Source: Bacteroidota bacterium (GTDB lineage: Bacteria; Bacteroidota; Bacteroidia; CAIKAF01). Taken from it: 64,000 nt of DNA. Positions 3,115-37,702 of this stretch are shown here, piece after piece. The notes beneath the pieces are model-generated. The model made no database searches, had not been told where the DNA came from, and saw nothing but the letters and a program-made list of their open reading frames with translations. A program made the position numbers and the translations under genes. How positions within the stretch are numbered: position 1 is the first letter of the stretch; every line of letters begins with the position of its first letter. Where the stretch lies: positions 62,001 through 126,000 of the forward strand of contig VGMT01000002.1 in assembly GCA_016866335.1 (NCBI GenBank). Reading direction: 5' to 3'.

Positions 3115-3149
3115 ATTCAGTTTGATTTGTCTTTTTTATGCGCTTTTTT

Positions 3150-16300: not shown

Positions 16301-16393
16301 AGCTGAAGGGCAAAGGTAAAAAAAGGGCGCAAGCACAGGCCATTCTTACGGTTTTTAGTAGAAGGATGTTTGAAATAGGTTAGAGGTTTTTTG

Positions 16394-16537
16394 GGGCGGG
16401 AAATCGGGCTTTCACCGGTGGTCCGCGGTTGCAGGCCTTGGCCCCAGCGGGGTTGCGGGGGCTCCTAAAGTCGCCTCCGCCCCACGCGGGGCCAAGGCCC
16501 GACACCCTTGCGGGCCACCTGGTTCAATCCCGCCCGC
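16394..16537 (+). repeat. GC-rich palindromic element, copy B
   Basis: GGGCGGGAAATCGGGCTTTC...GGCTCCTAAAGTCGCC...TCAATCCCGCCCGC; arm GGCCTTGGCCCC/GGGGCCAAGGCC. Confidence 0.88.
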
Positions 16538-16650
16538 GGCCTTTCAAAAAAATGAACCCTGCAAAAAAGATATTATCCTCCTAAACCCCTTCCCGATTTT
16601 GACCAAAAATCAAAAACCTAAAGAAAAAGTTAAAAAGAACAGATTTGCCC

Positions 16651-16681
16651 TTGACAAAATGCTTCGTGGTCCGTAATTTTG
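16651..16681 (+). promoter_or_regulatory. Predicted Bacteroidota-type promoter of ncRNA copy 1
   Basis: TTG-N20-TAATTTTG (TAnnTTTG -7 box); same spacing upstream of ncRNA copy 2. Confidence 0.72.
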
Positions 16682-16683
16682 TA

Positions 16684-16697
16684 TTTCACTAGTGAAA
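16684..16697. promoter_or_regulatory. 14-bp perfect palindrome at or near the predicted +1 (possible operator)
   Basis: TTTCACTAGTGAAA; core CACTAGTG conserved at the same position in copy 2. Confidence 0.6.
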
Positions 16698-16926
16698 CAA
16701 AAAATAGCATTTGCTTCGCCACGTTTTTTGGGGTGGCGAAGAACACTTAGGGATTATTTTTTAGGCGTGAAGTGTGTTTTGTGGGTCAAAGGAAAGCTGA
16801 AAAGCAATTCAATGGTTCACAGGGGGTCTCAGAAAAGCCTTCTAATTTGGCAAAGGCAACTTTGCTGAAAAGGAAGGCGGGAGTTTCGGGAATGAGACGG
16901 GATGAAGTGGTAGATCATCCTTTTTT
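16687..16926 (+). ncRNA. Candidate structured ncRNA, copy 1 (~240 nt)
   Basis: Promoter; CTTCGCCAC/GTGGCGAAG; ACACTT/AAGTGT; nested GTCTCA[GCCTTC[GCAAAG-GCAA-CTTTGC]GAAGGC]TGAGAC; terminator. Paralogous to 37210-37452(-). Confidence 0.72.
16900..16926 (+). terminator. Rho-independent terminator of ncRNA copy 1
   Basis: GGATGA-agtggtaga-TCATCC-TTTTTT. Confidence 0.75.
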
Positions 16927-17223
16927 GGTGAGGGTTGATAAGAGGAATGGGAGTAGCGGGTAAGAGGTTGAAAGGGGTTAGGCGAATGCCAGCACTCGTT
17001 TCTCGAATCGGTATTAGGTTGGAAGAGGCAGCGTTGCCCAAGGGAGACCATCCTGTCATTTTGACTTGGATGCGCCTCCTAAAAGTGCTTGTATTGACTT
17101 TCTATGCCCGAAGGTAGAGTTCCCTACCCTTGATATAACGCCTCAAAATTTCCCTCTTAAACCAATAAATGGGTTCAACATTACAATATTATTCCCAAGC
17201 GTAAATTTTTGCAATTTTAGGCT

Positions 17224-37454: not shown

Positions 37455-37485
37455 CAAAATTACGAAGGGCGTATAGACTTGTCAA
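37455..37485 (-). promoter_or_regulatory. Predicted promoter of ncRNA copy 2
   Basis: Minus strand TTG-N20-TAATTTTG; identical -7 box and spacing to copy 1. Confidence 0.72.
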
Positions 37486-37558: not shown

Positions 37559-37702
37559 GCGGGCGGGATTGAACAAGGTTGCCCGCAAGGCCGAAAGGGT
37601 ATGGGCCCGCGCGCGGCGCAGGCGACTTTAGGAGCCCGCGCAACGCCGCTGGGACCAACCCTTTTGGACGCGGACTACCTGTGAAAGCCCGAATACCCGC
37701 CC
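37559..37702 (-). repeat. GC-rich palindromic element, copy F
   Basis: Reverse strand GGGCGGGTATTCGGGCTTTC...GGCTCCTAAAGTCGCC...TCAATCCCGCCCGC; starts 1 nt after the stop codon of the gene at 37704. Confidence 0.88.

Follow-up and report, generated by a model that had tools for sequence, protein, structure and literature searches.

A candidate genus-restricted, multi-copy structured non-coding RNA gene family in a freshwater Bacteroidota bacterium

Organization of the unit

The window, i.e., the whole stretch of 64,000 nt analysed here, was found to contain two copies of a unit that is predicted to be a non-coding RNA gene, copy 1 on the plus strand and copy 2 on the minus strand (Table 1). 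Comparison of the copies showed that the unit has a putative promoter of the sigma-A type, its spacing fixed, and a palindrome where the RNA is expected to start. A 5′ domain made up of five hairpins or arms follows, and beyond it are a linker rich in purines and a 3′ hairpin. All elements listed for copy 1 in a preliminary description, made from the sequence before any search, were found in their places. The arm P4 has three tiers and a GNRA cap as described there, but the bracket notation used had hidden the unpaired stretches between the tiers.

Table 1. Features of the two copies of the RNA unit in the window.
Feature	Position	Strand	Details
Copy 1 promoter	16651–16681	+	TTGACA 16651–16656; TAATTTTG 16674–16681; 20 nt separate TTG and TA; A-rich tract upstream
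Copy 1 palindrome	16684–16697	+	TTTCACTAGTGAAA; spans the expected start (~16686)
Copy 1 P1, hairpin	16714–16722/16733–16741	+	CTTCGCCAC/GTGGCGAAG; 97.7% of cells paired
Copy 1 P2, stem	16743–16748/16770–16775	+	ACACTT/AAGTGT; C-G to G-C double change at one pair in 19 copies
Copy 1 P3, variable hairpin	16781–16820	+	Helices 3 and 4: 10 of 11 pairs changed on both sides
Copy 1 P4, three-tier arm	16826–16898	+	GTCTCA 16826; GCCTTC 16837; GCAAAG-GCAA-CTTTGC 16850–16865 (GNRA tetraloop); GAAGGC 16873; TGAGAC 16893–16898; 13 of 20 pairs changed on both sides
Copy 1 P5, hairpin and T-run (terminator of the preliminary description)	16900–16926	+	GGATGA/TCATCC 16900–16905/16915–16920, then T6; covariation; GUGGCA-like loop; T-run in most copies
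Copy 1 linker	16927–16990 (end approximate)	+	Variable, purine-rich, C-poor
Copy 1 3′ domain	17027–17080	+	Hairpin P6 at 17042–17079; covariation
Copy 2 promoter	37455–37485	−	TTGACA 37485–37480; TTTTG ends at 37455
Copy 2 5′ domain, P1–P5	37209–37455	−	Covariance model R1: 200.6 bits, E ~2e-59
Copy 2 3′ hairpin P6	37057–37092	−	Aligns and pairs like other copies

Of 56 distinct copies, 54 retained the promoter in the form TTGA..TAnnTTYG, 52 of them with a spacing of 20, and an A-tract was present upstream of it across the family. The promoter of copy 1 agrees with the flavobacterial sigma-A box, TAnnTTTG, which in Flavobacterium psychrophilum is located at −12 to −5 (PMC9723704). Since the box has this position in F. 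psychrophilum, the RNA of copy 1 is expected to start near 16686, within the palindrome, and each copy would be transcribed from about the corresponding position. A generic promoter and terminator scan gave no calls, which was to be expected because the promoter is not of the sigma-70 type and the hairpin has a 9-nt loop.

The palindrome at the start (CA-YYRR-TG) was kept in nearly all copies, and its centre was TCGA in 28, CTGG in 13, CTAG in 9, TCGG in 2 and CCGG in 1. The TTCAYYRRTGAA pattern was detected at 20 genomic sites, 15 of which belong to these RNAs; because the remaining sites were at background level, the palindrome was regarded as private to the family. An operator of a wider regulon was rejected, since the few sites outside the family did not exceed background and had different centres. 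The palindrome may be either a dedicated operator or an RNA end able to pair with other copies. The CTGG centre, which is no DNA palindrome yet is self-complementary via G-U pairs, leans weakly towards pairing of RNA ends.

Conserved fold and 3′ extent

The 244-nt strand of copy 1 folded at z = −4.8, and none of 200 shuffles folded as well. Among 58 distinct copies, 92.1% of the cells in stems P1–P4 were paired, compared to 42–48% when partners were slid by 1–3 columns, which is the control that preserves the relatedness among copies. In the same stems, 26 of 46 pairs were changed on both sides, and 236 double-change cells were observed compared to 77 in shuffles. The tetraloop of the innermost arm was GNRA in 43 of 54 copies and UUCG in one, and G-U pairs were frequent on the strand of the promoter. 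Comparison of the copies thus showed that the predicted fold is under selection as RNA.

No reading frame was conserved: of 55 copies, no more than 7 had any given frame open. A protein-coding function was ruled out for this reason, and the 63-aa ORF overlapping copy 1, which had already been described as not conserved in the paralogue, was considered accidental to this copy. No matches to Rfam 15 were found in the whole window at the gathering cut-off (HEARO, GOLLD, 6S and tmRNA included), searches of the copy 1 region at E values up to 10 gave only chance matches, none of them on the RNA, and in six other copies no Rfam family matched the RNA. Literature searches did not find the family described. 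The earlier claim that copy 1 reads as a complete RNA gene, promoter included, for which folding with alignment of homologs and comparison to Rfam had been proposed as checks, was supported by the covarying stems, the conserved promoter, the lack of a conserved frame and the lack of an Rfam match.

P5 had been regarded as the terminator that ends the RNA. It is a covarying hairpin (GGAUGA/UCAUCC, GGGUGA/UCACCC, GGGUUGGU/AUCAGCCC, GGGUGUA/UAUACCC, AAGUGUGU/ACACACUU and others) whose loop is of the GUGGCA type, and a T-run comes after it in most copies. It may act as a terminator, but conservation runs ~150 nt or more past it, and the conserved unit extends to about 17080. The first 20 nt of the linker consisted of 79% A+G and 4% C (41 copies). 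Pairing of P6 was 85%, compared to 33–46% with slid partners, and 7 of its 13 pairs were doubly changed (17 copies). Similarity ended ~240–300 nt after TTGACA for most pairs of copies and ~380–480 nt after it for closer pairs. Two long-range pairings, linker with 3′ tail and 5′ end with 3′ end, were rejected, since sequences from the same copy paired no better than those from different copies, except for a slight signal in one of the segments compared. GGAGG/AGGAG was enriched in the linker (z ~4–5), a value from shuffles that ignore relatedness and hence set aside as evidence. In one subfamily (L150, L155, L158 and L133), an extra conserved element, CCC-A5/6-GGG..TCCCTT, was found ~160–200 nt after P5, following the TATTGG that closes the 3′ domain; this element is possibly the true 3′ end.

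Copy number, genomic sites and turnover

A first search of the genome that contains the window (2.45 Mb, 62 contigs) detected more than 20 additional copies. With the covariance model R1, built from 34 copies, 27 copies were found in this genome, from a freshwater bacterium (G000). Three congeners gave 34 matches (G003; 22 full-length, the others being fragments that almost without exception lie at the ends of contigs), 16 matches (G004; 7 full-length) and 8 matches (G001), several of the last decayed; these counts are rough because many copies are at contig ends. The preliminary description had counted two paralogous copies, which has to be replaced by ~27 in the genome and dozens that are dispersed, gained and lost. 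R1 had no match in two other species of the genus (G002 and G005) nor in ten further genomes of the family, and outside the genus nothing credible was found when 396 genomes sampled from the class and 399 sampled from the phylum were searched, one 22-bit match being obtained (G223). Of 85,488 species scanned with a pattern, only three uncultured Flavobacteriales/Bacteroidetes bins (LaPlata, ErkenSummer and casp15) gave a hit. A phage or plasmid origin was rejected, since neither viral contigs in the pattern scan nor the phages and plasmids searched gave a match. The best reading is that the copies make up a putative genus-restricted, multi-copy gene family of structured non-coding RNAs, which is amplifying and whose members have promoters of their own.

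Neighbouring genes were unrelated among copies (LepA/DJ-1 family, sugar transferase/SmpB, PriA, DnaK, MsrA and others), and in 28 of 41 cases the downstream gene was on the opposite strand. At the site of copy 2, only 17–18 nt were present between the alignable flanks in G001, G003 and G004 compared to ~570 nt in G000, i.e., the site is empty in these relatives, while the site of copy 1 was without RNA in G003 and G004 and contained a decayed remnant in G001 (35.7 bits). Pairs of copies within G000 were mostly 88–100% identical per 40-nt window from the promoter through the 3′ domain, with unrelated flanks. Sequence comparison thus showed gain and loss of the predicted units from one species to another, at intergenic sites that are unrelated to each other. 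The tree of copies contained old subfamilies common to several species as well as expansions inside lineages. In the pair L028 (G004) and L150 (G003), orthologous on both sides, the 5′ domain was 99% identical compared to 93–94% for the flanks; this was the only ortholog pair in which the RNA was clearly better conserved than its flanks, the others being equivocal.

As in MITE-like elements, orthologous sites differed between relatives in whether the unit was present, and near-identical copies were dispersed; the RNA unit appears to spread like a non-autonomous element. At the junctions of copy 2 neither terminal inverted repeats nor a target-site duplication was clearly visible, and the shared segment often included a neighbouring GC-rich repeat. 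Homologous recombination would be the plainest route, since similarity often spans this adjacent repeat and two copies in G004 seem to join flanks that are distant in G003; this picture could also come from assembly error in metagenome bins, and misassembly in such bins could also account for part of the copy turnover. In G004, L026/L113 and L101, compared to L154, L151, L156 and L161 of G003, combined the upstream flank of one G003 copy with the RNA and downstream flank taken from a different G003 copy. Such chimeric flanks are due either to rearrangement at the RNA repeats or to misassembly.

Possible function and relation to known systems

With moderate confidence, we interpret copy 1 as belonging to a multi-copy family of structured non-coding RNA genes that is restricted to the genus and the members of which would be trans-acting RNAs that spread by DNA-level duplication. 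The transcript would end at P5 (~240 nt), continue to the 3′ domain (~400 nt), or do both. A common partner is proposed to bind the conserved fold, and the variable linker and P3 would be the parts in which copies differ in target. The family would most likely work as a large set of such paralogous RNAs, and it would spread in the way that a non-autonomous element does when it relies on recombination by the host.

A serious rival, though in our judgement less probable, is a purely selfish non-autonomous DNA element, a bacterial counterpart of MITEs or SINEs, with a transcript that serves only its own spread without gain to the cell. The high copy number, the empty sites and remnants, the near-identical dispersed copies and the restriction to one genus all agree with it, but most copies, including diverged ones, retain both promoter and fold; terminal inverted repeats and a target duplication were not clearly seen, and the searches for RT, Y1 and TnpB-like domains gave no candidate enzyme. 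Less likely still is a protein-free RNA gene acting as a successful mobile element, in which the transcribed folded RNA itself would be selected and drive its own spread; if true, such an RNA would be comparable to a SINE, but in a bacterium, with a promoter that it carries itself and a division into many subfamilies.

A structured, repeated and dispersed RNA with a variable part would also be expected if a protein-dependent system (group II intron, retron, DGR or omegaRNA/HEARO) had its guide or template RNA scattered without the protein gene. This is very improbable, since RVT_1 (PF00078) was absent in all four RNA-bearing genomes (G000, G001, G003 and G004) yet present in the two RNA-less ones, the only genomes of the genus with RVT domains (G002:C13:131546-132133 and G005:C1:879291-879689), Y1 transposase (PF01797) was absent in G000 and G001, a TnpB-like gene (PF07282) was absent in all six genomes of the genus, and Rfam gave no match; dependence on RT, Y1 or TnpB was rejected from the searches for these three domains. 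The complex fold followed by a terminator-like hairpin resembles a cis-acting leader, i.e., a riboswitch or attenuator with P5 as a switchable terminator. This was rejected as the least probable reading, because the strand and function of the neighbouring genes vary as given above and a second domain is conserved past P5.

In bacteria, families of paralogous sRNAs mostly consist of few, short members, and FopS with 14 is a large case. The FopS of Bacteroides thetaiotaomicron are paralogous sRNAs of ~65–70 nt that share a 5′ seed, bind RbpB and repress SusC mRNAs, have sigma-A-type promoters and are conserved across Bacteroidaceae with 12–15 copies per genome (PMC11697453). The present RNA shares with them the phylum, many dispersed paralogues, sigma-A-type promoters and a common 5′ part with downstream diversity, and several homologous intergenic candidate RNA genes were found, each with a promoter and no ORF. 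However, it is ~240–400 nt long, outside the ~65–70 nt of the published FopS description (PMC11697453) with which it was compared, has a multi-arm fold and 27 copies, and is patchy within one genus. By analogy, FopS would be the nearest described kind, with length, architecture and copy number setting the present RNA apart from membership.

HEARO/omegaRNAs of IS605-like elements are likewise structured RNAs with many dispersed copies, but the present RNA had no match in Rfam, which includes HEARO, the genus lacks a TnpB-like protein, and the RNA has a sigma-A promoter of its own. MITE/REP-type repeats are similar in being intergenic, dispersed, folding and present or absent between relatives, whereas the present RNA has a conserved promoter at a fixed spacing, loops of the RNA type and covarying stems, and terminal repeats or target duplication were not clearly seen. 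GOLLD, ROOL and OLE are usually single-copy or phage-associated; the present RNA is similar to them in size class and elaborate fold, but had no Rfam sequence match, is high-copy and was not found in phage records. A much larger RNA, with ~27 copies in one genome and absent from two congeneric species, makes it possible to follow, one site after another, how a bacterial RNA gene arises, spreads and decays, and it raises the question of what use a cell has for dozens of versions of one large RNA.

Other elements were observed near some RNA copies. An IS1634-family transposase gene (L129:3173-4699, G000:C4) was located upstream of one copy and was no general neighbour, and a cobalamin riboswitch (L154:3503-3687, G003:C24) was located a few hundred bases from another, on the opposite strand. 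The GC-rich repeats mentioned above form a second dispersed family of ~150 bp (TTTTTTGGGCGG...GGTTCAATCCCGCCCGCGG), with sites in the window at 3144, 16389–16541, 17930, 33240, 36221, 37559–37700, 56866 and 62025. Those beside RNA copies always point inward, an orientation that was set aside because the repeats in the window mostly follow gene stops. The repeat mostly begins just past a stop codon, on the strand of the gene, and it was also found at RNA-free sites in relatives.
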